64,000 bases of DNA from the NCBI GenBank assembly GCA_003987775.1, contig RXJD01000071.1, positions 84,365 through 148,364 on the forward strand. The letters run 5' to 3'. Source of the stretch: Mycobacterium sp. (GTDB lineage: Bacteria > Actinomycetota > Actinomycetes > Mycobacteriales > Mycobacteriaceae). The position numbers and the translations under genes were made by a program. A model generated the notes under the pieces. The model was not told the origin of the DNA, did not search any database, and was given only the letters and a program-made list of their open reading frames with translations. Positions 1,425 to 61,009 of this stretch are shown here, piece by piece. Position 1 is the stretch's first letter. Each line of letters opens with the position of its first letter.

Positions 1425-2828
1425 TCAGCCTTCGGCCAGCAGTTGCTTCTTGAGCACCTTGCCCAGCGCGTTACGCGGCAGCGACTCGACGAAACGTACC
1501 TCACGTGGTCGCTTGTGCACCGAAAGCTGTTGCGCGACATAGTTGATCAGATCATCGGCAGCGGCGGAGCCGACGACGTACGCGACGATCCGCTGCCCCA
1601 GGTCCTCGTCCGGCGGGCCGACCACCGCGACTTCCTCCACACCGGGATGACCGAGCAACACGGTCTCGATCTCCCCCGCGCCGATCCGGAATCCGCCGGA
1701 CTTGATCAGGTCGACGGACTCGCGACCGACGATGCGGTGCATGCCGCCGCCGTCGACGACCGCCACGTCGCCGGTGCGGTACCAGCCGTGCGGGTCGAAC
1801 GCCTCGGCGGTGGCCTCCGGACGGTTGAGATAGCCGTTGAACAGCGTCGGACCCCGAACCAGCAGCTTGCCCACCGTCTCGGCGTCGTGCGGAACCGGTT
1901 CGCCGTGGTCGTCGATCAACCGGGTCTGCACGCCCCGCAACGGCAGGCCCACCCAGCCCGGACGCCGTTCCCCGTCGGCGCGCGTCGACAAAGTGATCAG
2001 TGACTCCGAGGCACCGTAGCGTTCGATGGGCCGGTGCCCGGTCAGTTGCTCGAGGCGCTCGAAGACCGGCACGGGCAGCGCGGCGCTGCCGGAAACCAGT
2101 AGGCGCGCCGGGCGCAGCGCCTCGGCGGCCGCACCGTCGGCGACCACCCGCGACCACACCGTCGGCACCCCGAAATACAGCGTGCCTCTGGCCGCGGCGT
2201 AGCCGTCCGGTGTCGGTTTTCCGGTGTGCACGAAGCGGTTTCCCACCCGCAGCGATCCCAGCAACCCCAGCACCAGGCCGTGGATGTGATAGAGCGGCAA
2301 CCCGTGCACCAACACGTCGTCCGGTGTCCACTGCCAGGCTTCGGCGAGCGCGTCGAGGTCGGCGGCAATCGCCCGCCGGCTGACCTGCACGCCCTTGGGC
2401 AGCCCGGTGGTACCCGAGGTGTACACGACCATCGCCACCGAATCCGGTGACGGCTCGGCGTACCGGTGCCAGGACCGCGCGTGCAGCCGCACCGGGATGT
2501 GCGGCAGACCCTCCGGATCGTCGGGCGTCGGCCCGAGCCACGCCTGGGCGCCGGAGTCGGTGAGCATGTGGCGGCGTTCAGCCACCCCCACGTCGGCCGG
2601 CACCGGCACCACGGGCACACCCGCGATCAGGCACCCGGTGATCGCCAGCACCGTCGATGCGGTCGGCGCGGCCAGCACCGCCACCCGGTGCGCGCCGGCC
2701 ACCCGTTCGGCCACCGACGTCGCGGCACCGACCAGGTCGCTGCGACTCAGGGTGAACCCGTCGATCCTGACCGCGTCGGGGATGTCGGTGGCGGCAACGG
2801 CCGAGGGGTTCAGCGACGTCAGCAACAC
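1425..2828 (-). CDS. fadD36: Fatty-acid-CoA ligase FadD36-like
   Basis: An ANL-superfamily acyl-CoA synthetase of 467 residues, cytoplasmic, activating a carboxylic acid with ATP and CoA. The P-loop-like motif is VVYTSGTTGLPKGVQ. The A5 region RYGASE follows, then GWYRTGDVAV and the hinge VGRESVDLIKSGG; PRNALGKVLKKQLL near the C terminus carries the catalytic lysine. It is compact for a FadD protein and closely resembles M. tuberculosis FadD36 (Rv1193) from memory, including the VLLTSLNPS start, so the GTG at 2828 is preferred over longer upstream readings. It follows the Rv1192-like hydrolase by 10 bp, the same order as in M. tuberculosis. FadD36-type enzymes probably act on short acids such as malonate; substrate here is not shown. 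Confidence 0.9.
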   Translation of the reverse strand: MLLTSLNPSAVAATDIPDAVRIDGFTLSRSDLVGAATSVAERVAGAHRVAVLAAPTASTVLAITGCLIAGVPVVPVPADVGVAERRHMLTDSGAQAWLGPTPDDPEGLPHIPVRLHARSWHRYAEPSPDSVAMVVYTSGTTGLPKGVQVSRRAIAADLDALAEAWQWTPDDVLVHGLPLYHIHGLVLGLLGSLRVGNRFVHTGKPTPDGYAAARGTLYFGVPTVWSRVVADGAAAEALRPARLLVSGSAALPVPVFERLEQLTGHRPIERYGASESLITLSTRADGERRPGWVGLPLRGVQTRLIDDHGEPVPHDAETVGKLLVRGPTLFNGYLNRPEATAEAFDPHGWYRTGDVAVVDGGGMHRIVGRESVDLIKSGGFRIGAGEIETVLLGHPGVEEVAVVGPPDEDLGQRIVAYVVGSAAADDLINYVAQQLSVHKRPREVRFVESLPRNALGKVLKKQLLAEG

Positions 2829-2838
2829 GTCTGGGACG

Positions 2839-3651
2839 TTACCTGTGCGGCTCGGGGAACAACGGGCGCAGTGCCGCCGGCGGCCGGAAGGGGGCCCAGC
2901 TGCCGGCCGGTTGCGCGAGCCGGTCCGCGATGGCCCAGATGGTGGCCGGGTGGTGGCCGTAGCCGATGTGGCTGCTGAGCACCGCGATGTTCTCGGCGCG
3001 GTCGGAGGTGGCATCGACACACGTCTGCCAGGCGACCATGCCGTCGTAGCGCGAATAGATCGAGGTGGCCGGCACCAAGAGAGGCTCGTTTTCCATGGAC
3101 AGCGGCAATTCGTGCCGCTCCGCGTGCAGACGCGCGAACAGGTTGAAGTGGCGGGCGGCGCGGGACTGGCCTTCGTGCTGCATGCGGTACGGGCTGCCGA
3201 GCGTGATGACCTGCCGCACCGCCGCGGGATTGCGGCGGGCCAGCCTGCGCGCGAAGATGCCACCCAGGCTCCAGCCGATCAGGCTGACCGGAGTGTCGTG
3301 CCGTTGGTGCATCTCGTCGAGCAGCGCGGACATACCGGCCACCACCTTGGTGGTCGGCCCGACGTTGACGCCCAGCCCCCAGCCGTGTGCCTGATATCCG
3401 AGGCGAGTGAGCAGGCGCCGCAATGTCCAGGTGGTGCCGTCGCCGGCAAGCAGTCCGGGCAAGACCAGAACGGGATGCCCGTCGCCGGTCGGTAGCTTGC
3501 GCCGTAACGGCAGGGCGGCGACCAACTGGCCGTATTCCACGACGGCGCGCGGGATGTCGGTGAGCCAGAGTCCCAGCCCGGGGGCTTCGGCGGTGGCGTG
3601 ACCCGACCAGGCGGGACGGTCGACGCCCGGGTCGGCGGCTTCGGTCAGCAT
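2839..3651 (-). CDS. Alpha/beta hydrolase, Rv1192-like
   Basis: A 270-residue alpha/beta-hydrolase fold protein. The opening strand HPVLVLPGLLAGDGTTWTLR contains the oxyanion-hole region and the nucleophile elbow is LIGWSLGG (GxSxG with Ser). ITLGSPYRM follows the elbow, a pattern common in triacylglycerol-lipase and esterase-like proteins. A candidate acid is in the YSRYDGMVAW segment and a candidate histidine in SSHIGYGHHP. No signal peptide is seen. ATG at 3651 lies 2 bp after the stop of the upstream hydrolase, and fadD36 begins 10 bp downstream, so the three genes are probably one transcript. Natural ester substrate unknown. Confidence 0.85.
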   Translation of the reverse strand: MLTEAADPGVDRPAWSGHATAEAPGLGLWLTDIPRAVVEYGQLVAALPLRRKLPTGDGHPVLVLPGLLAGDGTTWTLRRLLTRLGYQAHGWGLGVNVGPTTKVVAGMSALLDEMHQRHDTPVSLIGWSLGGIFARRLARRNPAAVRQVITLGSPYRMQHEGQSRAARHFNLFARLHAERHELPLSMENEPLLVPATSIYSRYDGMVAWQTCVDATSDRAENIAVLSSHIGYGHHPATIWAIADRLAQPAGSWAPFRPPAALRPLFPEPHR

Positions 3652-4886: not shown

Positions 4887-4974
4887 TCCGTCACGGTAGA
4901 TGGCGCCGTCATGGCAAACCGCGCCGACCGTGAAGCCAGCTTCACGCCCGGCAGCGTGAACGGCAGGCTGAGTG

Positions 4975-7218
4975 TCAGTCGCCGGGCAGCCGCTCGCCGA
5001 TGACCCGTTGCGCGCGCAGGGCGGCGAGCTCGTCGTCGGACAGGCCCAGTCCGCGCAGGATCTCGTCGTTGTGCTGGCCGAGGGTCGGCGCACCGGCGCG
5101 GTGATGGCTCGGCGGCCCGGGCGTGATGCGAAACGGCCACCCCGGATAGCGCCGCGGTCCGGTGACCGGGTGGGTGAACTCTTGGTAGAACCGCCGCGCG
5201 TCGAGCTGGGCGAAGTCGTACATCCGGTCGCCGGTGGCCAGCTCTTCGGCCGGGATACCCTGTGCGCGAAGCGATTCGACGATGTCGGCGGATTTTCGGG
5301 TGCGCGTCCACCCGGCGACGAGGTCGTCGAACATGTCGTGGTCGAGCAGGCCCTCGTCGGGCAGCGACACCGCGACCCACACGTCCCCGTCGATCGTCGG
5401 GTACACGCCCTGCAGGTAGCCGCGCAGCCGGTTGCCGGGGCGCGGCAGCACGACACCGTTCATCGAATACTCGATCACCGGTTCGGCGGTCACGCACGCG
5501 GCGACCTCGATCTGGGCGATCTCGATCAGCTGCCCCTCGCCGGTCCGGCGCCGGTGCTCCAGCGCGGCCAGTAGTGCCACCCCGGCGTGCACACCGACGA
5601 CGGGGTCGGCCGGACCCTGCAGGTTGCACGGCGGCCCCTCGGCGTAGCCGGTGGCTGCTGTCATCCCGGATGTCTGTTCGATGTTGAGTGCCCACCCGAC
5701 GTAGTCGCGCCAGGGCCCTTCCAACCCGAAGCCGGGCATCCGTACCGCGATCACGTCCGGCTTGATCGCGATCAGGGACTCGTAGTCCAGCCCGAACTGT
5801 TCCACCACGCGCGGCGAGAAGTTCTCGACGACGACGTCGGCGTCGGCGGCCAACCGGTGAGCGATGTCGCGTCCGCCCTGTGCGGTCAGGTCGAGGGTGA
5901 TGTCTTTCTTGTTGAGATTGGTCGCCTGCCACAGGGCGCTGCGCTCGTACCAGTCCTCACCTTCGAAGGGGTAGGCGCCCGAGTAGCGGTGCCCGTCGGG
6001 ACGCTGAATCGACTCGACCTTGATGATGTCGGCTCCGAAGGCGCCCAGATAGCAGGTCAGATAGGCGCCGGCCCAGAAGGTGCTCAGGTCGAGCACTCGC
6101 AGTCCGGCGAACGGCATGGAACTCGTTGCGGGCGGCCAGGGTCGGCCGCTGCCCGACCACCGCGCCCGGCCACCGGGCCGCGGTGCCGGTTCGGGTTGCG
6201 CCACAGGGGTTTTGGACATCCGGAACGGCGCACCGGGACGCCGGAAGCCAGCGGTCTCGATGAAGAAGCCGCGCTTGGCGTACTGCGGGCAGTCCAGCAC
6301 GGTGGCGCCGTCGTGGACCGGTGCGGCCGGTATGCGCATCGCCTGACACAGGTCGACGGTTTCGGCGACGGTGCGCTGTATCAGCAATGGCTCTGCCGCG
6401 GCGAAGAACTCGGCGCGTTCGGGACCGCCGAGCATGATCGCGATCTGGTGTTCGCCGTACTCCGGTAGCCCGAGCATCGCGCACACGTCGAGCCAGTGCT
6501 GCCCGGTCAGGCAGTTGATTCCCACCCAGCCGTCGGCCGCCCGCACCACGCCCAGCATCGGCGCGGACCGCTGATTCGGGGGCAGCCCCAGACTGCGCAT
6601 CCGCTCGGACATCAGCATCGGGTAGGGCAACGTCGAGAGCAGCGCTTCGAACTCCGATACGTCGACCACGCGGCCGTCAAGCCGCAACGCCGTCAAGGCC
6701 CCCAGCGCGGCGTAGGCCCCGGCGACGTACTCGGAGATCCGGGCACCGGCCTGCACCGGCGGGCGGTCCGGGTCGCGGGCGCTGATCCACCCGGACACCG
6801 CCTGCATGGTCAGCGGGGTCGCGGCCCGATCACGCCACGGCCCGGTCCGACCGAAATGAGAAATGCTGACCTGCAACGCTTGTGCGGGCTCCAGCCCGAA
6901 CTTCTGCAGCCCTCCGGGCGGTAGGTTCTCGATCAGGACATGCGCCCCCGCGACGAGTTCGCGGGCGCCCGCCTGCCCATCGGGCGTGGCGAGATCGAAA
7001 GTGGCACCGCGTTTGCCGGCGTTGAGATACTCGAACAGACCGCCGTGGCGGCCGGCGGCGGGCTCGGGGAACGGCCCCCAGAGCCGTAGTGAATCACCCT
7101 CGGGCGGTTCGATTTTGATGACCTCAGCACCGAGGTCGGCCAAAAGCTTTGCGGCGTAGGGACCGGAGATTCCGGTCGCGATTTCGACGACGTGCAGCCC
7201 CGTTAGGGGACCGCTCAC
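4975..7218 (-). CDS. Tandem type III CoA-transferase (CaiB/BaiF fusion)
   Basis: A 747-residue protein made of two complete CaiB/BaiF (family III) CoA-transferase domains. Domain 1 covers about residues 1-350 (LTGLHVVEIATGISGPYAAK), and domain 2 starts at residue 368 (MPFAGLRVLDLSTFWAGAYL). Ordinary family members are about 400 residues and dimerise; a fusion of this size resembles M. tuberculosis Rv1866. The position of the catalytic aspartate reads GPADPVVG in domain 2, but in domain 1 it reads ARISEYVAG, so Glu replaces Asp there. That suggests one active and one structural or altered half. It should move CoA between acyl groups in the cytoplasm. GTG at 7218 overlaps the aldehyde dehydrogenase stop by 4 bp (GTGA), so the two are coupled. 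Confidence 0.88.
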   Translation of the reverse strand: MSGPLTGLHVVEIATGISGPYAAKLLADLGAEVIKIEPPEGDSLRLWGPFPEPAAGRHGGLFEYLNAGKRGATFDLATPDGQAGARELVAGAHVLIENLPPGGLQKFGLEPAQALQVSISHFGRTGPWRDRAATPLTMQAVSGWISARDPDRPPVQAGARISEYVAGAYAALGALTALRLDGRVVDVSEFEALLSTLPYPMLMSERMRSLGLPPNQRSAPMLGVVRAADGWVGINCLTGQHWLDVCAMLGLPEYGEHQIAIMLGGPERAEFFAAAEPLLIQRTVAETVDLCQAMRIPAAPVHDGATVLDCPQYAKRGFFIETAGFRRPGAPFRMSKTPVAQPEPAPRPGGRARWSGSGRPWPPATSSMPFAGLRVLDLSTFWAGAYLTCYLGAFGADIIKVESIQRPDGHRYSGAYPFEGEDWYERSALWQATNLNKKDITLDLTAQGGRDIAHRLAADADVVVENFSPRVVEQFGLDYESLIAIKPDVIAVRMPGFGLEGPWRDYVGWALNIEQTSGMTAATGYAEGPPCNLQGPADPVVGVHAGVALLAALEHRRRTGEGQLIEIAQIEVAACVTAEPVIEYSMNGVVLPRPGNRLRGYLQGVYPTIDGDVWVAVSLPDEGLLDHDMFDDLVAGWTRTRKSADIVESLRAQGIPAEELATGDRMYDFAQLDARRFYQEFTHPVTGPRRYPGWPFRITPGPPSHHRAGAPTLGQHNDEILRGLGLSDDELAALRAQRVIGERLPGD

Positions 7219-8681
7219 GCGGGCACTCCGATGGCCATCTGTTCCATGTACTGATACACCCCGCCGATTCCGCCGCCCTCCCGGCCCAGGCCGCTGAGCT
7301 TGAAACCGCCGAAGGGTGCGGCGCCGGGGCCGCAGCCGTTGACCGCAACCTGCCCCGTGCGGATGCGGCGGGCCACGCTGACCGCGCGATCCAGGTCGCC
7401 GCCCCACACCGAACCGGACAGGCCGTAACGAGAGTTGTTGGCGATGGCGACCGCATCGTCGTCGTCGCGGTAGCGCAGCACACTCAACACCGGCCCGAAC
7501 ACTTCCTCCTGGGCGATCGCGGAATCGGGCTTGACGCCGGTAAGGACCGTCGGCTCGAAGTAGAAGCCGGTGTCCAGGCCGGCCGGCCGGCCGCCACCGG
7601 TGGCCAGCTCGGCGCCCTCGCGCAGCGCTCCGGCGACGTGCGCCTCCACCCGGCTGCGCTGGGCGTCACTGATCAACGGACCCATCTGCACATCGAGATC
7701 GGCGGGATCCCCGACCTTGACGTCCCGGGCCAGTCCCACCAGCCGCTCGACGACCTCGTCGTGCAGGGAATCGGGCAGCAACAGCCGGCTCTGCAGAATG
7801 CAAGCCTGGCCGGAATGCATTGAGCAACAGTCGAACAGCATCTTCTGCAGCATGTCGTCGGTGACGTCGGCGTCGTCGAGGACGATGCACGCCGACTTGC
7901 CACCGAGCTCCAGCAGCAGCCGCTTCAGCGAGTCCCCGGCGGCGGACATCACCTGGCGGCCGACGACGGTGCTGCCGGTGAAACTGACCATGTCGATCCG
8001 CGGATCGGTGGTGAGCAGCTGGGCCGCCTCTAGTCCCGACGGGGTGACCACATTGACCACACCCGGCGGAAAGTCGGTGTGCTCGTCGATGAGTCGCGCG
8101 AGGGCGAGCCCGGCCAGCGGGGTGAGCGGTGACGGCTTGAGGACAACGGTGTTGCCCGCAGTCAGCGCATGGTTGAGCTTCATGACGTTGAGTAGGTGCG
8201 GGAAGTTCCAGGGTGTCAGGACCGAGACGACGCCGAGTGGAACGTGGCGCAGCACCGTCTTCCCGGCGCCGATCCCGGTGACGGTCTCATCGGCGAGCTG
8301 GGTGGCGAGTTGCGCGGCATGCATGGACATGAACGCGGCACCGTCGATCTGCATCATCCGTTCGTTGGCTGTGCAGCCCCACTCCACCTGGGACAGCGCG
8401 AAGAAGTCGTCGGCATATTTGAGCAGCGCGTCGCCCAGTTGGCTGAGACAGTTCGCGCGCTCCTGCGCACTCATGGTGGCCCACGGCCCCTCGTCGAACG
8501 CCCGGCGCGCGGCACCGACAGCGTCACTGACCTGACCGACGCTCGCGTCCGGTGCGGTGGCGATGACCTGTTCGGTGGCCGGCGAGATGTCGTCGTAGCG
8601 GCCGTCTTCGGGTTCCACCCAGGTGCCGTCGATGTACAGCTGATAGGTGTCGATCAGTCCACTGGGCGGTAGTTCGGCCAT
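7215..8681 (-). CDS. NAD(P)-dependent aldehyde dehydrogenase
   Basis: A 488-residue ALDH-superfamily enzyme oxidising an aldehyde to the acid. The cofactor-binding signature is TPWNFPHLLNVMKL, followed by VSFTGSTVVGRQ. The general-base glutamate is in LLLELGGKSA and the catalytic cysteine in HSGQACILQSRL; the EEVFGPVLSV motif is also present. ATG at 8681 (MAELPPSGLIDT) sits behind a strong GGTGAGGAAG site; an ATG at 8708 would add nine residues. First gene of a leftward pair with the CoA-transferase and divergent from the P450 operon. Context suggests it oxidises an aldehyde made from a P450-generated alcohol, giving the acid that is then CoA-activated. That is inference. Confidence 0.9.
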   Translation of the reverse strand: MAELPPSGLIDTYQLYIDGTWVEPEDGRYDDISPATEQVIATAPDASVGQVSDAVGAARRAFDEGPWATMSAQERANCLSQLGDALLKYADDFFALSQVEWGCTANERMMQIDGAAFMSMHAAQLATQLADETVTGIGAGKTVLRHVPLGVVSVLTPWNFPHLLNVMKLNHALTAGNTVVLKPSPLTPLAGLALARLIDEHTDFPPGVVNVVTPSGLEAAQLLTTDPRIDMVSFTGSTVVGRQVMSAAGDSLKRLLLELGGKSACIVLDDADVTDDMLQKMLFDCCSMHSGQACILQSRLLLPDSLHDEVVERLVGLARDVKVGDPADLDVQMGPLISDAQRSRVEAHVAGALREGAELATGGGRPAGLDTGFYFEPTVLTGVKPDSAIAQEEVFGPVLSVLRYRDDDDAVAIANNSRYGLSGSVWGGDLDRAVSVARRIRTGQVAVNGCGPGAAPFGGFKLSGLGREGGGIGGVYQYMEQMAIGVPA

Positions 8682-8873
8682 CTGCTTCCTCACCCCAACG
8701 TCGGTCATCTATCAACCTGGTGTACACCCGCCGGGACTCGTGGTCAATGATCCCCATGATGAATTGCAGGCGATTTCAAGGCGTTGTCTTGCTGTTGACA
8801 GCGCAGCGTGACCCAGAGTAGACACGACCCACAGGACACTTTGTGGCAATGTGTCGGATTGCAGGGAGGCGCT

Positions 8874-10049
8874 GTGCTCACCGATGTTCCCCTGCACTCC
8901 CCCGATTTCTACGCCGGCGACCCCTACCCGGCCTACCGGGAGCTGCGCGCGACCTCGCCCGTGCACTGGAACGACGTCACCGGATTCTGGGCGTTGTTGA
9001 AGTATGAGGACATTCGCTACGTCTCCGGCAACCCCGCGCTGTTCACCTCGACCCAAGGCATCTCGATACCGGATCCGAACGTGCCGAACCCGGTGCAGGA
9101 GGGCAACCTCATCTTCACGGACCCGCCGCGGCACCGGCAGATGCGCAAGCTGATCAATTCCGGTTTCACCCGGCGGCGCGTCGCGGTCCTCGAACCGAAG
9201 ATCCGCGAAATCGTGGGCGGCATCCTCGATCGGATCGAACCGGGCTCGGTGTACGAGTTCGCCGAACAGGTCGCCGCCCCACTGCCCACCCGGATGATCG
9301 CCGAGCTCATCGGCGCCCCCGCCGAGGATTGGGAGCGGTTCCGGGCCTGGTCGGACGCCGCCACCGGCACGGCTGATCCCGAAATCGAACTCGACGCCTT
9401 CGTGGCCATCGGCCAGCTCTTCGAATACTTCCAGAAGCTCATCGCGGCACGGCGCGTCGAACCGCGCGACGACCTGCTGTCAGTGCTGGCCGATGCCGAG
9501 ATCGACGAGCACCGCCTGACCGACGAGGACCTGCTGAACTTCTCGTTCCTGTTGCTGGTTGCGGGAAATGAGACCACCCGCAACTTGATCGCGCTGGGCA
9601 CCCTCGCGTTGATCGAGCACCCCGACCAGTGCCGCCTGCTGATCGAGGACCCGACGCTGATTCCCGGTGCGGTGGAGGAGATGTTGCGCTGGACCAGCCC
9701 GGTGGTCAGCATGTCGCGGGTGGCGACCGCCGACACCGAGATTCGCGGCCGGCTGATCCGCGAGGGTGAGGTGGTCACCATGTTGTACGGGTCCGCCAAC
9801 CGCGACGAGGATGTCTTCGGCGCTGACTCAGAGGACTTCAGGGTGACGCGTCACCCCAACCCCCACATCGCGTTCGGATGCGGCGAACACTCCTGCATCG
9901 GAGCGCAATTGGCACGGCTGGAAGCGACGGTCTTCTTCCAGGAGTTGCTGCGCCGCTATCCCCGGCTCGAGCTGGCGGGTGACGTCGACCGGATGAAAGC
10001 CACCATGGTGCCCGGGGTGAAGCGGATGCCCGTTCGGCTGGGGGCCTGA
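8874..10049 (+). CDS. Cytochrome P450
   Basis: A soluble bacterial-type P450 of 391 residues. The I-helix motif is LLLVAGNETTRN (oxygen activation, with Asn where His or Asp is often seen), the K-helix ExxR lies in AVEEMLRW, and the haem ligand loop is FGCGEHSCIGAQLA, with Cys as ligand. GTG at 8874 follows AGGGAGG at 5 nt and gives a normal N terminus (LTDVPLHSPDFYAGDPYP); a frame extension to 8808 is less likely. It needs ferredoxin and a reductase from elsewhere. It leads a seven-gene run of dehydrogenase, hydratase and aldolase genes, the same position as cyp125 in the cholesterol igr cluster, so terminal hydroxylation of a branched alkyl side chain is plausible. I cannot assign a CYP number. 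Confidence 0.93.
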   Translation: MLTDVPLHSPDFYAGDPYPAYRELRATSPVHWNDVTGFWALLKYEDIRYVSGNPALFTSTQGISIPDPNVPNPVQEGNLIFTDPPRHRQMRKLINSGFTRRRVAVLEPKIREIVGGILDRIEPGSVYEFAEQVAAPLPTRMIAELIGAPAEDWERFRAWSDAATGTADPEIELDAFVAIGQLFEYFQKLIAARRVEPRDDLLSVLADAEIDEHRLTDEDLLNFSFLLLVAGNETTRNLIALGTLALIEHPDQCRLLIEDPTLIPGAVEEMLRWTSPVVSMSRVATADTEIRGRLIREGEVVTMLYGSANRDEDVFGADSEDFRVTRHPNPHIAFGCGEHSCIGAQLARLEATVFFQELLRRYPRLELAGDVDRMKATMVPGVKRMPVRLGA

Positions 10050-10053
10050 GCCG

Positions 10054-11256
10054 GTGCACCTTGAATACACGCCCGAGCAGGAGCAGCTGCGTGCGGAGAT
10101 ACGGGCCACGCTGGAACAGGTGATGACGCCCGAGCGACTGGCAGCGATCGGCGAGAACATCGAGGGCGGACTGGCGGTGCGCGACACCGTGCGTGCACTG
10201 GCGCAGGCCGGCCTGCTCGGCGTCGGCTGGCCGAAAGAATATGGCGGACGCGGCTTCTCGGCGATTGAGCAGTTCATCTTCTCCGAGGAGGCCCGCCGGG
10301 TCGGCGCGCCGATCCCGCTGGTGACACTCAACACCGTGGGCCCGACCCTGATGCAGCAGGGTACCGAGGAGCAGAAGCAGCGGTTTCTGCCCGCGATCCT
10401 GGACGGCAGCGTCGAATTCGCGATCGGCTATTCCGAACCCGGAGCCGGCAGTGATCTCGCGTCGATACGCACCACCGCCGTCCGCGACGGTGACGAATAC
10501 GTGATCAACGGCCAGAAGATGTTCACCAGCGGCGCCGCCTATGCCGACTACATCTGGCTCGCGGTCCGCACTGACCCGAATGTCAAGAAGCACAAAGGCA
10601 TTTCGATCCTCATCGTGCCCACTTCGTCGCCGGGATTCTCCTGGCAACCCCTGCACACCATGCCCGGCATCTCCACCTTCTACACGTTCTACGACAACGT
10701 CCGGGTGCCGGTGAGCGCACTGGTCGGTGAGGAGAACCAGGGCTGGCAGCTGATCACCACCCAGCTCAACTTCGAACGCGCCGCGCTGGGCAACCTCGGG
10801 GCACTGGAGCCGCTGTGGGAGAAGACGCTGCAGTGGGCCCGCGAGACCGAACTCGACGGGGGGCGGGTCATCGACCAGCCCTGGGTTCAGCTCGCGCTGG
10901 CCCGCGTGGAAGCTCAGGTCGGCGCCTACAAGCTGGTCAACCTGCGGGTGAACGCGGCCATGACGAAGGGCATTCTGAATATGGGCGAAGCGTCGGCGGC
11001 CAAGGTGTTCGGCACCGAGCTCACCCAGCAGGTCGCCCGGCAGCTGCTGGAGGTGTTGGACGGCAACGGGATACGTCGCGGCAAGCAGGCGCCACTGCGG
11101 GGCGCACTGGAATCGGCGTACCGGCAGGCGGTGATCAACACATTCGGTGGCGGTGCCAACGAAATTCAGCGTGACATCATCGCCATGGCCGGCCTCGGCA
11201 TGCCGCGGGCCCCGCGTGATCTTCGAGCAACCGAGAAGTCAGGAGGAACTCAGTGA
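10054..11256 (+). CDS. Acyl-CoA dehydrogenase, subunit 1 (FadE28/29-like)
   Basis: A 400-residue FAD-dependent acyl-CoA dehydrogenase. FAD and substrate motifs include AIGYSEPGAGSDLASIRTTA and, near the C terminus, NTFGGGANEIQRDIIA, where the family's catalytic glutamate region often lies. It starts at GTG 10054, 4 bp after the P450 stop, and overlaps the next gene by 4 bp. Together with the second dehydrogenase at 12205 it resembles the FadE28-FadE29 (ChsE1-ChsE2) pair, which forms an alpha2beta2 enzyme desaturating a three-carbon steroid side-chain CoA ester. The heteromeric arrangement here is inferred from context and from the two genes being divergent in sequence rather than recent duplicates. 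Confidence 0.88.
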   Translation: MHLEYTPEQEQLRAEIRATLEQVMTPERLAAIGENIEGGLAVRDTVRALAQAGLLGVGWPKEYGGRGFSAIEQFIFSEEARRVGAPIPLVTLNTVGPTLMQQGTEEQKQRFLPAILDGSVEFAIGYSEPGAGSDLASIRTTAVRDGDEYVINGQKMFTSGAAYADYIWLAVRTDPNVKKHKGISILIVPTSSPGFSWQPLHTMPGISTFYTFYDNVRVPVSALVGEENQGWQLITTQLNFERAALGNLGALEPLWEKTLQWARETELDGGRVIDQPWVQLALARVEAQVGAYKLVNLRVNAAMTKGILNMGEASAAKVFGTELTQQVARQLLEVLDGNGIRRGKQAPLRGALESAYRQAVINTFGGGANEIQRDIIAMAGLGMPRAPRDLRATEKSGGTQ

Positions 11257-11795
11257 CCGACGCTGAGCTACAAGCCAAGGTGCGGGCCCTGGTCGGCCAA
11301 CCCACTGGAGGCACCGGAAAGCCCCAGCTGGCGCCCGATCCGGTGAATCAACCGATGATCCGGCACTGGGCGCACGCGCTTGCCGACTTCAATCCGGTGT
11401 ACCTCGACCCGGATTTCGCGGCGACTTCACGGTTCGGCGGCATCGTGTCGCCACCGGTGATGCTGCAGACCTGGATCATGCCGTCGCCGAAGCTGGAGGG
11501 GATCGGCGAGCGCGGCGGCGCCCCGGTCGAGATCGCCGCGAACCCGACGGCGTTTCTGGATGAGGCCGGATACACCAGCACCGTGGCCACCAACTCCGAG
11601 TTCGAGATCGAGCGTTACCCGCGGTTGGGCGACGTCATCAGCTCCACGGCGGTGTACGAGTCGGTGTCGGAGGAGAAGACGACCGCGCTGGGCACCGGCT
11701 TCTTCCTCACCTGGCTGACCACCTATACCGACCAGCACGGTGAAGTGCTGGGCCGGCAGCGATTCCGGGTCCTGCGATTCAAGCCGGCCAACTGA
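11253..11795 (+). CDS. MaoC-like hot-dog protein, non-catalytic hydratase subunit (ChsH2 N-domain-like)
   Basis: A 180-residue single hot-dog domain. The hydratase-2 motif normally read D-x-N-P-(I/L)-H appears here as ALADFNPVYLDP: Asp45 is kept but the histidine is Tyr50. The loss of the catalytic His suggests a structural or substrate-binding partner. In the cholesterol igr operon the equivalent is the N-terminal domain of ChsH2, which pairs with catalytic ChsH1 and carries a C-terminal DUF35 domain. Here the DUF35 is the next gene, overlapping by 1 bp, as if the fusion were split. GTG at 11253 overlaps the dehydrogenase stop by 4 bp and follows AGGAGGA. Confidence 0.82.
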   Translation: MTDAELQAKVRALVGQPTGGTGKPQLAPDPVNQPMIRHWAHALADFNPVYLDPDFAATSRFGGIVSPPVMLQTWIMPSPKLEGIGERGGAPVEIAANPTAFLDEAGYTSTVATNSEFEIERYPRLGDVISSTAVYESVSEEKTTALGTGFFLTWLTTYTDQHGEVLGRQRFRVLRFKPAN

Positions 11796-12202
11796 TGGCC
11801 ACCCGACTGCCGCCAACGGTCAGCCCGGACTCCGAGTTCTACTGGAACGGGTTGCGGGACAACAAGCTGCTGATCCAGCGCTGCAGCGGCTGCGGCACCC
11901 TGCGCCATCCGCCCCGGCCGATGTGTCCGCACTGCCGCTCGCTGGAATGGGAGGCGGTCGAGTCGTCGGGCCGCGGCACCGTCTACAGCTATGTGATGCC
12001 GCACGAGCCCCGATTCCCGTTCTTCGACTACCCCTACGTGGTCGCGCTGGTGGAACTCGAGGAGGGCATCCGGGTGGTGTCGAACCTGACCGACGTTGAG
12101 CCCGCCGAGGTCACTGTCGGTATGCCTGTCGAGGTGTACTTCCAGAGTTTCGACGTGGCCAGTGGAGACCTGGTGTTGCACCAGTTCCGGCCGAGCGGCT
12201 AG
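11795..12202 (+). CDS. DUF35 zinc-ribbon/OB-fold protein (ChsH2 C-domain-like)
   Basis: A 135-residue protein. An N-terminal helix region is followed by a rubredoxin-like zinc ribbon with two CxxC pairs (RCSGCGTLRHPPRPMCPHCR, four cysteines) and then an OB-fold (GRGTVYSYVMPH onward). DUF35 proteins bind acyl-CoA and act as partners of thiolase-like enzymes. In the igr system the DUF35 domain of ChsH2 forms a complex with the aldolase Ltp2 and is required for its activity. The ATG overlaps the preceding stop (TGATG), indicating translational coupling with the MaoC-like subunit. Likely partner here: the Ltp2-like protein at 13769. Confidence 0.87.
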   Translation: MATRLPPTVSPDSEFYWNGLRDNKLLIQRCSGCGTLRHPPRPMCPHCRSLEWEAVESSGRGTVYSYVMPHEPRFPFFDYPYVVALVELEEGIRVVSNLTDVEPAEVTVGMPVEVYFQSFDVASGDLVLHQFRPSG

Positions 12203-12204
12203 TC

Positions 12205-13320
12205 ATGGACTTCACCTTCACCGAAGAGCAGGACACCGTAGCCAAGCTCGCCCGCGAACTGTTCGAGCGCCGCGCCACCCCCGAGCGGCTCACCGAACTG
12301 GAAGCCGGAGTGCGCTTCGACCAGGCGCTCTGGAAGGAACTGGCGGCCGCCGACCTGCTCGGCACCGCTCTGCCGGAATCAGTGGGCGGCAACGGCGGCG
12401 GCTTCGTGGAACTCGGGGTGCTGCTGGCCGAGGTCGGGTGGGGTGTGGCCGCGGTGCCCGCCTATGCGACCTTGGTTCTGGGCGCCGATCCCATTGCACG
12501 CCAGGGAAATCCGGAGCAGCAGCGCCGCCACCTGCCCGGTGTCGTGGCCGGCGACCGTATCCTGACGGCGGCTCTGGCCGAACCGGGACGCTCCGATCCG
12601 AGGTTTCCGGCCACCACCGCCCGGCGCGATGGACCGAGTTGGCGCCTGGACGGTGTGAAAGAGCTGGTGCCCGCCGCGCAACTGGCCGACACCATGCTGA
12701 TCCCGGCTGTGACCCCGGACGGCGATACGGCGCTCTTCCTGCTGGCCACCGACAGTCCCGGTCTCGACGTCCGTCCCGTGCCGACCACCAGCGGCGAACC
12801 GTATGCCGATGTATTCCTGGACGGCGCAGTGGTTTCCGGGCAGGACCTGCTCGACGGCGACATCGAGTCGCTGCACACCCGCGCCCTGGTCGCCCTGTGC
12901 GCCATCCAGCTCGGCGTCGTCGACCGGGCTTTGCACATCGCGGCCGGCTATACCAGTGAGCGTGAACAGTTCGGCCGGCCGATAGGCAGCTTCCAGGCCG
13001 TGCAACAGCGCATGGCCGACGCCTTCATCGACGTCGAAGCGATCCGGTGGACCACCTGGCACGCGGCGTGGCTGCTCGCCAACGGCCGCCCGGCCGACCG
13101 CGCCGCCCGCATCGCCAAGTTCTGGGCAGCCGAGGCAGGCGCCCGGGTGGCCGCCACCGCCCAGCACGTGCACGGCGGCATCGGAATCGACACCACCTAT
13201 CCCCTGCACCGTTATTTCCTGTGGGCCAAGCACAACGAACTGACCCTCGGCCCGGCGTCTCAACAGCTTGCCCACCTGGGCGCGACGTATGGCGCGACCT
13301 ATCCGGAAGGACCCGCATGA
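12205..13320 (+). CDS. Acyl-CoA dehydrogenase, subunit 2
   Basis: A 371-residue acyl-CoA dehydrogenase, opening MDFTFTEEQDTVAKLAREL. The C-terminal domain holds YTSEREQFGRPIGSFQAVQQ, an R-E-Q-F-G-x-P-I motif strongly conserved in the family, and HVHGGIGIDTTYPLHRYFLW, typical of the non-canonical FadE subunits found in steroid-side-chain clusters. The FAD-loop region (AALAEPGRSDPRF) is degenerate compared with the partner at 10054, as expected when flavin and active-site residues are shared between different subunits. Start is 2 bp after the DUF35 stop; its stop overlaps the next gene by 4 bp. Confidence 0.87.
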   Translation: MDFTFTEEQDTVAKLARELFERRATPERLTELEAGVRFDQALWKELAAADLLGTALPESVGGNGGGFVELGVLLAEVGWGVAAVPAYATLVLGADPIARQGNPEQQRRHLPGVVAGDRILTAALAEPGRSDPRFPATTARRDGPSWRLDGVKELVPAAQLADTMLIPAVTPDGDTALFLLATDSPGLDVRPVPTTSGEPYADVFLDGAVVSGQDLLDGDIESLHTRALVALCAIQLGVVDRALHIAAGYTSEREQFGRPIGSFQAVQQRMADAFIDVEAIRWTTWHAAWLLANGRPADRAARIAKFWAAEAGARVAATAQHVHGGIGIDTTYPLHRYFLWAKHNELTLGPASQQLAHLGATYGATYPEGPA

Positions 13321-13769
13321 CCGCCACCCACACCCGCACCACAACCCTGCGCTGGCAGGACATCTCCGAAGGTGACGAGGTCACACCGATGGACATCCCG
13401 ATCACCACGACGATGATCGTCGCGGGCGCGATCGCCTCGCGGGACTTCATGCCGGTTCATCACGACCGCGACTACGCCAACAAGCAGGGGTCGCCGAACC
13501 TGTTCATGAACATCCTGACCAGCAACGGCTACTGCGTGCGTTTCCTCACCGACTGGGCCGGACCCGAGGCGATGGTCACGAAGCTGTCGATTCGCCTTGG
13601 CGTGCCCTGCTTTCCGGATGACCCGTTGCGCTTCACCGGGACGGTGACGGGCAAGACCGAAGGTACTGGGGGCGAGAACTTCGTCGAAGTGACGTTCCAG
13701 GCCGCCAACAGTCTCGGCAACCACGTCTCCGGCACCGCGGTGCTCAGCCTGCTGGACGGAGCCGCCTGA
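13317..13769 (+). CDS. MaoC-like enoyl-CoA hydratase, catalytic subunit (ChsH1-like)
   Basis: A 150-residue hot-dog protein. The catalytic dyad is intact: ASRDFMPVHHDRDYA gives Asp43 and His48, matching the hydratase-2 D-x(4)-H pattern, in contrast to the His-less partner at 11253. In the igr operon ChsH1 is the small catalytic subunit paired with ChsH2, and both sit just before ltp2, as here. Expected role: syn hydration of the alpha,beta-enoyl-CoA made by the dehydrogenase pair. ATG at 13317 overlaps the upstream stop by 4 bp and the downstream ATG overlaps its stop by 1 bp. Confidence 0.85.
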   Translation: MTATHTRTTTLRWQDISEGDEVTPMDIPITTTMIVAGAIASRDFMPVHHDRDYANKQGSPNLFMNILTSNGYCVRFLTDWAGPEAMVTKLSIRLGVPCFPDDPLRFTGTVTGKTEGTGGENFVEVTFQAANSLGNHVSGTAVLSLLDGAA

Positions 13770-14938
13770 TGAGCAGTACTTTGCCGGGCGCGGCGGCCAT
13801 CGTCGGGATCGGCCAGACGGAGTTCTCGAAGGAATCCGGGCGCAGCGAACTGCAATTGGCGTGCGAAGCGGTCAGCGCGGCGCTCGATGACGCCGGGCTG
13901 GCGCCCAGCGACGTCGACGGCATGGTCACGTTCACCATGGACTCCAGCGACGAGATCGAGATCGCCCGCAACGTCGGCATCGGCGACCTGAGCTTCTTCA
14001 GCCGGGTGCATCACGGTGGTGGCGCCGCTGCGGGCACGGTCGTACACGCGGCGATGGCGGTCGCCACCGGCGTTGCCGACGTCGTGGTGTGCTGGCGTGC
14101 CTTCAACGAACGCTCCGGCTATCGTTTCGGCGGCAGCGGTCGCACCGACCTGGGGACGCCGCTGTTCATGGCGCACTACGCGCCGTTCGGATTGCTCACG
14201 CCGGCGGCGTGGGTGGCGATGCACGCGCAGCGGTACATGTCGACCTACGGGGTCACCAACGAGGATTTCGGCCGCATCGCCGTCGTCGACCGGGCGCACG
14301 CCGCCCGCAACCCCGACGCGTGGTTCTATGAACGCCCCATCACCCTGGAGGATCACCAGAATTCGCGCTGGATCATCGAACCGGTGCTGCGCCTGCTGGA
14401 CTGCTGTCAGGAGAGCGACGGCGGCGTCGCGATGGTGATCACCAGCGCCGAACGCGCGCGGGACCTGCGTCAGCCGCCGGCCATCATCACCGCGGCGGCC
14501 CAGGGTGCGGCCGCCGACGGCGAAATGATGACGAGTTATTACCGCGACGACATCACCGGGCTGCCCGAAATGGGCGTCGTCGCCGAGCGGTTGTGGCGTG
14601 ATTCGGGGCTCAAACCGGCCGACATCCAAACCGCGTTCATCTACGACCATTTCACCCCGTTCGTGTTCACCCAACTCGAGGAGCTGGGCTTCTGCGGACG
14701 CGGCGAGGCCAAGGATTTCGCCACCATCGAAAGGCTCTCGCTGGGCGGCGATTTCCCGATCAACACCAACGGCGGGCTACTCGGTGAGGCGTACATCCAC
14801 GGCATGAACGGCATCACCGAAGGCGTCCGCCAGGTGCGCGGCACGTCCTACAACCAGGTGCAGAACGTCGAACACGTTCTGGTCACCTCGGGTACCGGTG
14901 TGCCCACCAGCGGCCTGATCCTCGCCGGGGCCGATTAG
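13769..14938 (+). CDS. Thiolase-fold lipid-transfer protein, Ltp2-like retro-aldolase
   Basis: A 389-residue thiolase-superfamily protein of the SCP2-thiolase/Ltp branch. The N-terminal nucleophile position, normally Cys in a GxGCxSG context, reads VHHGGGAAAGTVV. The C-terminal Cys loop reads TSGTGVPTSGLIL. Both thiolase cysteines are therefore absent. Conserved features of this branch include FIYDHFTPFVF and INTNGGLLGEAYIHGMNG. Cys-less Ltp2 homologues cleave a beta-hydroxyacyl-CoA by a retro-aldol reaction using tyrosines rather than by thiolysis, with a DUF35 partner. Here the DUF35 gene is three genes upstream. Last enzyme gene of the operon, 8 bp before tetR. Confidence 0.88.
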   Translation: MSSTLPGAAAIVGIGQTEFSKESGRSELQLACEAVSAALDDAGLAPSDVDGMVTFTMDSSDEIEIARNVGIGDLSFFSRVHHGGGAAAGTVVHAAMAVATGVADVVVCWRAFNERSGYRFGGSGRTDLGTPLFMAHYAPFGLLTPAAWVAMHAQRYMSTYGVTNEDFGRIAVVDRAHAARNPDAWFYERPITLEDHQNSRWIIEPVLRLLDCCQESDGGVAMVITSAERARDLRQPPAIITAAAQGAAADGEMMTSYYRDDITGLPEMGVVAERLWRDSGLKPADIQTAFIYDHFTPFVFTQLEELGFCGRGEAKDFATIERLSLGGDFPINTNGGLLGEAYIHGMNGITEGVRQVRGTSYNQVQNVEHVLVTSGTGVPTSGLILAGAD

Positions 14939-14946
14939 GTGCGGTC

Positions 14947-15573
14947 ATGACCCAGGCGTCCACTTCAGCTGCGGGAACCGATACCCGGGAGGTCATCCTC
15001 GACGCCGCGTACGCCTGTTTCCGTAAGCAGGGCCTGCTCAAAACGACGATCGTCGACATCGCGAGGGAGGCCACCGTCTCCCGCAGCACCATCTACGAGT
15101 ACTTCCGCGACAAGGGCGCCATCCTGGAAGCCTGCGCCGAGCACGCCTCCGAGCAGTTCTACCGCGAGATGTCTCGGGCCATGGCCCGGGGCGCTTCACT
15201 GGAGGAAAAGCTCTCCAACGCAGCGGTATTCGTCACCCAGGCGCGCCGCGCCATCGCCTCCGAGGAGTACTTCGACGAAGACGCGATCAGCCTGCTGCTG
15301 ACCAAGGACGCCGCCCTGCTGCTGCGCGAATGCGTCGACTTCTTCGCGCCGTACCTCTCGGCCGCCAAACTCACCGGCGAGGTACGCAAGGACCTCGACA
15401 TCGAGGCTGCCGGGGAATGGTTCGCGCGCATCCTGTTCTCGCTGTTCAGCACCGCGTCGCCGATTCGGGATATGGACGATCCCGGCGTGGTGGCCGCGTT
15501 CGTCAGCGCCTTCGCGGTGCGTGGCTTCGCCGGTGATCGCCCCCGACCGCGCCGGGTCACCGAAGGCCATTGA
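14947..15573 (+). CDS. TetR-family transcriptional regulator
   Basis: A 208-residue TetR regulator. The N-terminal helix-turn-helix spans about residues 14-60 (ILDAAYACFRKQGLLKTTIV then VSRSTIYEYFRDKG), followed by a helical ligand-binding domain with no recognisable motif. It starts 8 bp after the aldolase gene in the same direction, so it is probably co-transcribed and controls the whole P450-to-aldolase operon, perhaps also the divergent dehydrogenase/CoA-transferase pair across 8709-8873. The ligand may be a CoA ester from the pathway, as for other side-chain regulators such as KstR; that is inference. No KstR-type motif was seen in the divergent region. Confidence 0.9.
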   Translation: MTQASTSAAGTDTREVILDAAYACFRKQGLLKTTIVDIAREATVSRSTIYEYFRDKGAILEACAEHASEQFYREMSRAMARGASLEEKLSNAAVFVTQARRAIASEEYFDEDAISLLLTKDAALLLRECVDFFAPYLSAAKLTGEVRKDLDIEAAGEWFARILFSLFSTASPIRDMDDPGVVAAFVSAFAVRGFAGDRPRPRRVTEGH

Positions 15574-15716
15574 CCCGCCTGCAGGCTTCTCGTGCAGTCG
15601 CACACCCTGACACCCCGTCGTACCCTGTGGGAACACGTTCGGCAGGATCCTTGGCAACGTGGCGGATGCGGGACGGCTGATCCAGAACCGGCTGCAGCGC
15701 GGGAGGGGTGAGCAGC

Positions 15717-18023
15717 GTGTCAGAAACGGCGATCGGTCGCCCCGTCGACAGGGTGGACGGCGTCGACAAGGTGACCGGGGCGGCCCGATACGCTGCCGAC
15801 ACGGACGTACCTGGTCTGCGGTACGGCGTGCTCGTGCAGGCGGGCATCTCGCATGGCCAGGTCACTCGAGAGTCGCTGGAGTCCGCGGCCGCCGCCGCCA
15901 GTGCCTCGCCCGGCGTGGCCTGTGTCCTGACGCCGCTGAATTGCCCTGCATTACAAGCCGTTCCAGGTGATATCAGCTGGGATCTGCCGGTGGAGCGTCG
16001 CCCGCCGCTGGCAGATCTCACGGTTCAGCACTACGGCCAACACATGGCTCTGGTGGTTGCCGACACATGGGAGAATGCCACACTCGCCGCGTCCTCGATG
16101 CAACTGGAATACCGCGAACTTCCAGCAACCTTCACGGCGCAGCAGGTGGTGCTCGATAACCCGGAACCCGCACGCGGCGGCGGTGACGCCATGATCCGCA
16201 CCGGCTGGTATCGGCCCGACCATTTTGTGAAACTGCCGGAGGAAAAGCTTCAGGACCGCCGCGGCCCTGCAGACGAGCCGCACACCGGGACCCGGATCAG
16301 CGCGCGGTTCACGACACCCGAGAACGCACACTATCCGATCGAACTCGCGTCCTGCATCGCATCCTGGGAGGGCGATCGGCTGACGATCCACGACAGCACG
16401 CGCTGGATAGCCGGCGAACGTCGGGTCCTGGCAGCGCATCTCGGAATCTCCACCGACCAGATCCGGATCATCTCGCCGGTAGTGGGCGGCGCATTCGGAT
16501 CGAAGAGCTTCCTGTGGATGCATGTGGTGCTGTGCGCGCTAGCCGCGAGAATGGCACGCAGCCCGGTCAAGCTGGTACTGAGCCGCGACCAGATGTTCAC
16601 CTCGACCGGGCATCGTCCGCCCACCGAACAGGATCTGCGACTGGTCGCTGACGACAGCGGCCGGTTGGTCAGCATCGAGCACCACACCCTGACCACCACC
16701 TCGACCGTCGCGCACTTCTGCGAACCGGCGGGACTGTCCACCCGCTTCCTGTATCAGTCGCCGCGGCTGGTGGTCTCCCACACCGTCGGCAGAACTCACA
16801 CTCCGACACCATGTTTCATGCGAGGACCGGGCGAGGCTCCCGGTCTGTTCGCGCTCGAGGTGGCGATGGACGAGCTCGCCTACGCGCTCGGGACGGACCC
16901 GGTGCACTTGCGGTTGCTCAACGACGCACCCCAAGACCAGGCAACCGGCAGGTCGTGGTCTCAGCGCCATCTACTGGACTGCTATCGCCAGGGCGCCGAA
17001 CGGTTCGGCTGGCCGTCACGACCCGTGTCGCCTCGTTCACTGCACCGCAATGGAATTCAGGTCGGGTGGGGTATGTCCACTGCCACTTATCCCGGGCGCA
17101 GGATGCCGGCGGGGTGCCGCGTCACCACTGACCGCGATGGTCATCTGATCTTCGCTTCGGCCACCCACGAGGTGGGCAATGGCGTGCGAACGGTCATGTG
17201 CCAGCTCGCCGCGGATGCCTCGGGCATGCCGCTGGACCAGGTGTCTTTTGTATCCGGAGACTCCTCTTTCCCGGAAGCGCCGTACAGCGGCGCATCGCAA
17301 ACCACCGCGACCGTCGGTTCCGCGGTCTACGAGGCCGCACAAGAGTGGAAGCAACGTCTGCTCTCGCTGGCCGTGACGGATCCGCAGTCTCCCTACTTCG
17401 ACTGCAATCCGGGCACTCTCGACGTCAGAACGGGAGCGGTGGTCAGTTCGGACGCGGCGCTGCGTCCCATGCAGGTCACCGCGCTACTGGCCACCGCGTC
17501 GCCTGAGCTGCTGGCGGGTTTGGACTTCGTGCGGGTCAGCGATGGAGGTCCCACCGACGGGCCCGTCCCGCAGTCTTTCGGTGCTCACTTCTGCGAGGTC
17601 GAAGTCGACGAACAGATCGGCCGCGCGACGGTCACACGATGGGTCGGGGTGATGGACTGCGGCACGGTCATCAACCCGAAACTGGCTCGTAGCCAGGTGA
17701 TCGGGGGAATCACCTTCGGACTCGGCATGGCGCTCATGGAACACGTGCCGTACGACCCGGGCACGAATCACGCATTGGGCGAGTATTACGTCCCGACCCA
17801 CGCGGACGTCCCTGATTTCGACATCTCTTTCATCGACAGCGCCGATCGCCAGCTCGATGCGTTCGGGGCGCGGGGCATCGGCGAGATCGGCATATGCGGC
17901 GTGCCCGCGGCGGTGGTCAACGCCATCTTCCATGCCACCGGCCGACGGCTGCGCGACCTGCCGATCACCCTGGAAAACCTGATGTCCCCGTTCACCTCCG
18001 AGGTCGAAGAGGTCCGCCGATGA
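15717..18023 (+). CDS. Molybdopterin-binding subunit of an aldehyde/xanthine oxidase-family hydroxylase
   Basis: The large subunit of 768 residues. An N-terminal hammerhead domain (VDRVDGVDKVTGAARYAADT) leads into molybdenum-cofactor domains with GGAFGSKSFLW, FMRGPGEAPG and SGASQTTATVG. The catalytic glutamate is expected in GARGIGEIGICG near the C terminus. GTG at 15717 lies 8 nt after GGGAGGGG and is preferred to a GTG nine bases upstream that abuts the same site. It is the first of three overlapping genes (Mo, 2Fe-2S, FAD). The order and FAD subunit type resemble the PaoABC aldehyde oxidoreductase group, so an aldehyde or N-heterocycle is the likely substrate. No Tat signal is seen on this subunit. 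Confidence 0.9.
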   Translation: MSETAIGRPVDRVDGVDKVTGAARYAADTDVPGLRYGVLVQAGISHGQVTRESLESAAAAASASPGVACVLTPLNCPALQAVPGDISWDLPVERRPPLADLTVQHYGQHMALVVADTWENATLAASSMQLEYRELPATFTAQQVVLDNPEPARGGGDAMIRTGWYRPDHFVKLPEEKLQDRRGPADEPHTGTRISARFTTPENAHYPIELASCIASWEGDRLTIHDSTRWIAGERRVLAAHLGISTDQIRIISPVVGGAFGSKSFLWMHVVLCALAARMARSPVKLVLSRDQMFTSTGHRPPTEQDLRLVADDSGRLVSIEHHTLTTTSTVAHFCEPAGLSTRFLYQSPRLVVSHTVGRTHTPTPCFMRGPGEAPGLFALEVAMDELAYALGTDPVHLRLLNDAPQDQATGRSWSQRHLLDCYRQGAERFGWPSRPVSPRSLHRNGIQVGWGMSTATYPGRRMPAGCRVTTDRDGHLIFASATHEVGNGVRTVMCQLAADASGMPLDQVSFVSGDSSFPEAPYSGASQTTATVGSAVYEAAQEWKQRLLSLAVTDPQSPYFDCNPGTLDVRTGAVVSSDAALRPMQVTALLATASPELLAGLDFVRVSDGGPTDGPVPQSFGAHFCEVEVDEQIGRATVTRWVGVMDCGTVINPKLARSQVIGGITFGLGMALMEHVPYDPGTNHALGEYYVPTHADVPDFDISFIDSADRQLDAFGARGIGEIGICGVPAAVVNAIFHATGRRLRDLPITLENLMSPFTSEVEEVRR

Positions 18024-19551: not shown

Positions 19552-19555
19552 CGCG

Positions 19556-59913: not shown

Positions 59914-60159
59914 GCTGCGACGGCGCCGGGGAGTTACTGCCGCATCGGCGGCCGAAGTCGTGTCTATCGGCCCGACTTTACCGACCCGGCAGCACGCCGA
60001 GCCTTTTGTAACGGCGCGAACACGATTCCCAGGTCGCCGGTCACCGCCCTCACTCGTATCGGTAACGATCGCATAAATGCCACACGTGTCACTTGAGTCA
60101 CTTCTGTACCAAGCTAGCTTCGGCTCTGGGACCAGTCATCGATCAACTCAGGGAGAGTC

Positions 60160-60957: not shown

Positions 60958-61009
60958 GTCCGGTAATCACCGACGGCTGACCTACCACCAACAACCGGGA
61001 GAAAACACC

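Follow-up and report, generated by a model that had tools for sequence, protein, structure and literature searches.

A divergent block of ten genes in Mycobacterium sp. (assembly GCA_003987775.1), at positions 4975-15573 of a 64,000-nucleotide stretch of contig RXJD01000071.1 (the whole stretch is hereafter called the window), encodes enzymes that, by homology, belong to the C3 steroid side-chain set and retain its catalytic residues. Comparison with related loci places the block in an old lineage of its own rather than among recent copies of the igr operon. We propose, with slightly better than even confidence, that TetR controls the block as a single catabolic unit, which would strip an isopropyl-type group from a ring carbon and release it as propionyl-CoA. 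A conserved inverted repeat in the control region shared by its two arms is new here. The original prediction had described a ten-gene divergent block, and open reading frames (ORFs), G+C content at third codon positions (GC3) and Pfam and NCBIfam searches find every gene at the place and on the strand that it gave, with genes for a CoA-transferase and an aldehyde dehydrogenase (ALDH) facing a run from cytochrome P450 (P450) to TetR:

4975..7218, minus strand: family III (CaiB-type) CoA-transferase of two fused halves, predicted to load the acid with CoA (PF02515, 510 bits over three stretches)
7215..8708, minus strand: ALDH (PF00171, 495 bits)
8874..10049, plus strand: P450, the first gene of the operon (PF00067)
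10054..11256, plus strand: acyl-CoA dehydrogenase, larger subunit, FadEL (top solved structures 4x28_A, 4e-125, and 6wy8_B, 2e-119)
11253..11795, plus strand: MaoC1, a MaoC-type protein resembling the MaoC half of ChsH2 (4w78_A/4wnb_A, 8e-28)
11795..12202, plus strand: free-standing DUF35 protein with a four-cysteine zinc ribbon (PF01796, PF12172; 6ok1_B, 9e-39)
12205..13320, plus strand: acyl-CoA dehydrogenase, smaller subunit, FadES (6wy8_A, 6e-83; 4x28_D, 5e-70)
13317..13769, plus strand: MaoC2, a ChsH1-like MaoC-type protein with Asp/His (4wnb_B, 4e-28)
13769..14938, plus strand: Ltp2-type retro-aldolase (PRK07855/NF005892, 680 bits against a cut-off of 469; 6ok1_A, 8e-175)
14947..15573, plus strand: TetR-family regulator (PF00440)

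The GC3 filter retained nine of these ten genes, and the short MaoC2 ORF (13317-13769) was placed by homology instead; the CoA-transferase reached no NCBIfam equivalog cut-off. The P450 probably starts at 8874 rather than at 8808, as a GTG stands there behind GGGAGG and the conserved sequence of its relatives begins at this point. On the plus strand, neighbouring frames from P450 to TetR overlap or lie at most 10 bases apart, and on the minus strand the GTG start of the CoA-transferase at 7218 overlaps the ALDH stop; therefore, two divergent transcripts are likely. The ten genes encode the enzymes of a single beta-oxidation round; Pfam and NCBIfam found no ordinary thiolase among them.

The arrangement is widely conserved. 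A search of 198 genomes of the genus with FadEL gave 76 matches at E 1e-130 or better, and a module-type FadE (at least 71% identity) was found in 75 of the 198 genomes, at 79 of the 82 places listed; the 76th genome (G123) was rejected as a carrier, its match being only 54% identical and of the FadE26 type. We mapped 59 loci, comprising 40 picked from the 79 places, 16 from a scan of named genomes (at least 80 loci, with the block at 16 of those listed), two from other genera (L224 and L231) and the window itself. By FadEL sequence 56 of the 59 are distinct, three pairs being the same contig, and related loci are not independent. All ten genes occur in the same order and on the same strands in 51 of the 59 loci, from at least two genera, and this recurrence argues that the arrangement exceeds chance. 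Among the remainder, the CoA-transferase is missing from L047 and L111 (one contig) and the ALDH from L063 and L064, L065 and L072 are reduced to FadEL-FadES-TetR, and contig ends interrupt the block in L101 and L231. The P450 is kept in 57 of the 59. Two genomic settings were seen: most loci of 80-96% identity adjoin putA/rocA-like genes, FadD and a hydrolase, and those of 71-78% lie elsewhere. Beyond the genus, searches of 301 genomes of the family gave 14 matches, two of them from other genera, and 396 genomes of the phylum gave four, all from the window's own genus and including its own genome; Nocardia vaccinii also carries the block (L109). We found no paper describing the ten-gene block in the open-licence literature, subscription papers being mostly outside this search. 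Near the reduced loci L065 and L072, a DUF35 gene and a thiolase-fold protein of more distant relationship were also seen.

The residues expected of working enzymes are retained. The Glu of ELGGKS and the Cys of GQACIL, which we take to be the ALDH motifs with a catalytic role, are present in all 38 aligned ALDH proteins, and the heme-Cys and AGNETT motifs in all 41 aligned P450s. Module Ltp2 proteins carry YDHF and GEAY without exception (40 of 40), in alignment with Tyr294 and Tyr344 of TcLtp2, and the four cysteines of DUF35 are likewise invariant (41 of 41). MaoC2 has Asp43 and His48, and MaoC1 a Tyr at the position of the catalytic His, each in 41 of 41 aligned proteins; these residues were assigned by alignment to the igr proteins of the same genome. 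The roles of residues in Ltp2, MaoC and DUF35 proteins follow the available parts of PMC12329534 and PMC11321319, the latter describing a MaoC pair in which one subunit has Asp/His and the other a Tyr in place of His. MaoC1 is thus probably the non-catalytic partner, as far as alignment can indicate.

The igr locus of the window's own genome lies on contig C50 and has the order P450-FadE28-FadE29-ChsH2-ChsH1-Ltp2. Against its products the module shows 67% identity for Ltp2, 46% for MaoC2 with ChsH1, 38% for MaoC1 with the MaoC half of ChsH2, 42% for DUF35, 49% for FadEL with FadE29, 33-35% for FadES with FadE28 and 36-37% for P450 with CYP125. The enzyme families are therefore related, and the dehydrogenases are by sequence a pair of steroid-type acyl-CoA dehydrogenase subunits. 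Two details of the parallel that had been drawn with igr did not hold. The gene order of the module matches casLMNOP rather than igr, and the dehydrogenases are not counterparts of FadE28-29 in particular, because a pair on contig C113 is closer to them (53% for FadEL and 42% for FadES, against 49% and 35%); we take this pair to be FadE26/27, a label that rests on an adjacent FadD. A further cluster in the same genome (C37:42000-60000, L252) contains a FadE pair, a distant Ltp (34%), DUF35, FadD and a P450 of the CYP125 clade.

To place these proteins more broadly, canonical Ltp2 was searched in 91 genomes of the family and 246 of the class, and selected neighbourhoods were mapped. Eleven fetched loci outside the window's genus have the order FadE-ChsH2-FadE-ChsH1-Ltp2; these casLMNOP-like loci, together with L213 and L250 of another order, make up a set of 13 that we call T2, and we infer that the T2 loci are of the cas cluster type. 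A third set, T3 (L218, L220, L226-L230 and L232), comes from other genera of the family and has separate MaoC and DUF35 genes; in this set, genes resembling ChsH1 and Ltp2 lie close to FadE pairs. In an Ltp2 tree of 57 rows, four of which are below 40% identity and sit on long branches, all 17 module rows fall into a single clade (100/99). Of the 12 canonical igr rows, 11 group together (88/99) and L249 sits at an open fork; all T2 rows but L245 and L250 form a clade (100/97), and so do seven T3 rows (100/100). Quick trees of FadEL and FadES, assessed by the Shimodaira-Hasegawa-like approximate likelihood ratio test (SH-aLRT) only and weakly supported in their deep order, also separate the module (SH-aLRT 100 and 99, respectively); the FadEL clade is weakly sister to T2 plus T3 (81), and the placement of FadES is unresolved. 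MaoC and DUF35 share one frame in all 12 igr-type loci and all 13 of the T2 set, and are separate in all 8 T3 loci and all 54 module loci. According to PMC12502768, both activities were retained in a mutant of the Comamonas protein whose two parts were produced apart from each other, which indicates that a split MaoC/DUF35 is workable.

These observations bear on whether the block is simply a redundant second igr copy for ordinary cholesterol side chains, an explanation that we regard as quite unlikely. The high identity of the two Ltp2 proteins does speak for it, and only they, among 16 matches in the genome, pass the family cut-off. However, module-type FadE is present in 75 of the 198 genomes of the genus, and the six module genomes examined for this all have an igr-type Ltp2 as well (of their six neighbourhoods, four were mapped as igr). 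In addition, Ltp2 and both FadE proteins fall in separate clades, the gene order and the regulator differ, no strict KstR site is present in the window, and the module adds an ALDH and a CoA-transferase. A recent igr duplicate was rejected on the evidence of separate Ltp2, FadEL, FadES and P450 clades, gene order and the split MaoC/DUF35.

The P450 likewise belongs to a lineage of its own. Among solved structures it matches best a chain called CYP125MRCA, which the name suggests to be an ancestral reconstruction, followed by CYP142, and its nearest relatives in the same genome are three other P450s (41-43%), CYP142 (41%, a label confirmed by search) and CYP125 (37%). In the P450 tree the module proteins form a separate clade (100/100) next to a large group into which both CYP142 and CYP125 fall, and we therefore rejected its assignment as a CYP125 paralogue in particular, which had been part of the original prediction. 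Recently duplicated extra copies of the module-type P450 occur in L050, L054 and L057 according to the tree, and in L112 according to identity only. As solved CYP124 omega-hydroxylases of methyl-branched lipids are among the closer matches of this P450, the module might instead degrade acyclic methyl-branched chains, such as branched fatty acids or isoprenoids of the pristane type. As a rule, the breakdown of an acyclic 2-methyl acid proceeds via a ketone and an ordinary thiolase. The block has no such thiolase, and a retro-aldol step by Ltp2 is called for when a tertiary alcohol forms at the beta carbon; we thus consider an acyclic substrate very unlikely.

One divergent control region, common to both arms, is recognizable between ALDH and P450:

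8795..8823, plus strand: probable operon promoter, TTGACA-N17-GTAGAC (TTGACA-N14-19-GTA[GC]AC in 37 of 43 regions)
8833..8858, plus strand: inverted repeat AGGACA-N13-TGTCGGA, starting 9 bases past the promoter
8719..8747, minus strand: possible ALDH/CoA-transferase promoter, TTGACC ... GTGTACAC, assigned from sequence only (GTGTACAC-type element in 33 of 43 regions)
8701..8725, minus strand: candidate second TetR site beside the ALDH promoter, with 2 mismatches to the site pattern

The inverted repeat follows the pattern [AC][AG]GACA-N13-TGTC[CGT][AG]A, which is found in 36 of the 43 regions at the 13-base spacing and in none at spacings of 8-12 or 14-18. The pattern was derived from the same sequences on which it was counted, so spacing controls and shuffles were run; shuffled regions gave a mean of 0.01 matches and a maximum of 1. 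In 32 of the 43 regions the repeat lies within 20 bases after the promoter pattern, and the reduced loci L065 and L072 retain it before FadEL. Its retention where only FadEL-FadES-TetR remain links it with TetR, not with P450 or ALDH, and it is probably the operator of the local TetR, as judged from this pattern of conservation. With a slightly different pattern the whole genome yields four matches (none with the reversed pattern as a control), the other three lying in stretches covered by mechanically called ORFs. The second site is less distinctive: across the whole window as many matches or more arise in 80 of 100 shuffles, so that this search is weak alone, and a looser pattern of the same 13-base spacing occurs on this strand in 20 of 41 regions, or 16 of 41 once L056, L062, L063 and L076 are discounted as the first site read backwards.

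Using the KstR and KstR2 motifs as we take them to be, we found no strict KstR (T..AAC..GTT..A) or KstR2 site in the 64-kb window. Loose AAC..GTT cores number 24 in the 64 kb, five of them within 4900-15710, including one at 15632 between TetR and the next gene; none lies between ALDH and P450. The module TetR scores 23 bits against the KstR family model, whose cut-off is 280. On these motif searches KstR or KstR2 was tentatively rejected as the main control, although the loose cores may still act, and the block is probably regulated separately from the known steroid side-chain genes. Taken together, the idea of a coherent side-chain-cleavage module stood up well: the block is paralogous enzyme by enzyme to the igr locus on C50, and has its own regulator and a probable operator. 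Of the two outcomes named as refuting the original prediction, unrelated families and separate regulation of individual genes, neither was seen at the level of sequence, where the families are related and the two arms share a control region.

We propose the following pathway. The P450 would hydroxylate a terminal methyl group. Oxidation of the alcohol to the aldehyde may also fall to the P450 or, in some carriers other than the window, to a zinc alcohol dehydrogenase (Zn-ADH). ALDH, to judge from its family, would yield a 2-(ring)propionic acid, which the fused CoA-transferase could convert to the acyl-CoA. For the following steps homology is strong and the residues are conserved: FadEL-FadES would place a double bond toward the ring, MaoC1-MaoC2 would hydrate it so that the ring carbon gains a tertiary hydroxyl, and Ltp2, held by the free DUF35, would carry out the retro-aldol cleavage to a ring ketone and propionyl-CoA. 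Repression of both divergent transcripts may be lifted when TetR binds a ligand, for which the acid and its CoA thioester are candidates. An alcohol step fits the Zn-ADH gene by Ltp2/TetR in 19 loci (L049, L051-L053, L055, L056, L058-L060, L099, L100, L102-L104, L106-L108, L110 and L112; 18 are distinct, as L059 and L107 are one contig), where identities are 84-100% and two matches are incomplete; the gene was seen between Ltp2 and TetR in L049, positions in the other loci agree, and the window has none.

As substrates we consider polycyclic isoprenoids most likely, namely those whose side chain is an isopropyl group or of the C22-steroid type. A polycyclic substrate is favoured because the core enzymes are steroid-type by homology, and one with an unoxidised methyl end because the P450 is nearly constant; a single round of beta-oxidation without an ordinary thiolase fits a side chain that needs one cut. 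More tentatively, the module may represent a self-regulated, P450-initiated, Ltp2-type route outside steroid catabolism, in which an unoxidised isopropyl group is removed from non-sterol cyclic isoprenoids of the abietane, p-menthane or hopane type.

The main rival to our interpretation is a finishing branch for C22 (bisnorcholane) steroids, in which a Sal-type aldolase would leave a C22 alcohol, aldehyde or acid and the module would convert it to a 17-ketosteroid and propionyl-CoA, with ALDH acting as Sad, the CoA-transferase replacing StdA2/CasI, and the remaining enzymes serving as Scd2AB, Shy2 and Sal2. The steroid-type core enzymes are in keeping with this, the same set of reactions is attributed to P. 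stutzeri Chol1 in the available part of Table 1 of PMC8399759 (Sad, StdA2, Scd2A/B, Shy2 and Sal2), and Mycolicibacterium neoaurum forms the C22 aldehyde and 4-HBC via atf1/chsH4, as given in the accessible part of PMC10398937. However, such a branch leaves the P450 unexplained in 57 of the 59 loci, and the window offers no strict KstR or KstR2 site, only the loose KstR core at 15632. Moreover, igr disruption gives C22 steroids (3-OPC and 3-OPDC; PMC10398937, same part) with no backup seen, which bears on the module only if those strains carry it. We regard the C22 branch as possible, at well under even confidence.

Several points weigh against our proposal of a single TetR-controlled unit that removes an isopropyl-type group. 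Seven of the 43 regions do not contain the exact inverted-repeat pattern, among them both of the examined loci from outside the genus (L109 and L224), and L067 has its match on the side of ALDH. The operon could also be one step of a longer pathway using genes elsewhere. Two loci without ALDH and one genome without the CoA-transferase imply that these steps can be supplied from other places, and a neighbouring FadD could do the CoA loading. A FadD gene adjoins the block in the window (1425-3263) and FadD also stands beside many of the loci that we call A-type, so that the supposed independence from FadD enzymes is unproven.

On the other side of the block, between TetR and a proline dehydrogenase gene (15708-20089), the window contains molybdenum hydroxylase genes (MoCoBD large subunit, 2Fe-2S and FAD-binding) and a MobA-like gene. 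They were rejected as members of the unit, as the large subunit is absent beside TetR in the 40 mapped A-type and B-type loci, with one 31% match elsewhere in L063. Farther along, positions 60001-62000 differ from the rest of the window in composition (GC 0.735, GC skew -0.18).

The block would be a whole catabolic unit, for which its FadE serves as a marker in 75 of the 198 genus genomes sampled, and in which steroid side-chain chemistry is combined with a P450, a CoA-transferase and a regulator of its own, and the identity of its substrate would tell whether this chemistry reaches beyond steroids. A naturally split MaoC/DUF35 hydratase-aldolase pair may be useful for studies of mechanism and for biocatalysis. 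As a caution, not every mycobacterial ltp2/chsH set should be read as cholesterol genes.

Among the known systems, the closest in gene order is casL-M-N-O-P of Rhodococcus jostii RHA1, which removes the C3 side chain of cholate; its order is taken from the locus tags in the available part of PMC8399759 Table 1, and by that order it shares with the module the succession dehydrogenase-hydratase-dehydrogenase-hydratase-aldolase. A single gene encodes both hydratase and DUF35 in that system (fused in 13 of 13 loci of the T2 set), whereas the module has two; the module also lacks a CasI-type ligase, adds P450, ALDH, CoA-transferase and TetR, and has an Ltp2 in a clade apart from that of the same-order T2 loci. 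The igr operon resembles the module in its enzyme classes, conserved catalytic residues and P450 at the head, but the module has another order, a split ChsH2, another P450 lineage and regulator, and the extra ALDH and CoA-transferase. By description, the Sad-StdA2-Scd2AB-Shy2-Sal2 set of Pseudomonas stutzeri Chol1 carries out the same predicted reactions from aldehyde to ring ketone, although it uses a CoA ligase where the module has a transferase and no P450 appears in the covered part of the table (PMC8399759). The operon atf1-chsH4-chsE6-kstR3 of M. neoaurum, known as the HBC operon, is similar in its free DUF35, thiolase-fold aldolase and local TetR, as described in part of PMC10398937; in contrast, it cleaves C22-C23 to an aldehyde, and that part mentions no hydratase or P450 in the operon. 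Outside steroids, the ipfDE genes of ibuprofen degraders, as described in part of PMC9195938, also free propionyl-CoA from a ring-bound propionyl-CoA group; there, however, a dioxygenase prepares the ring, whereas in our proposal for the module dehydrogenation and hydration would do so.

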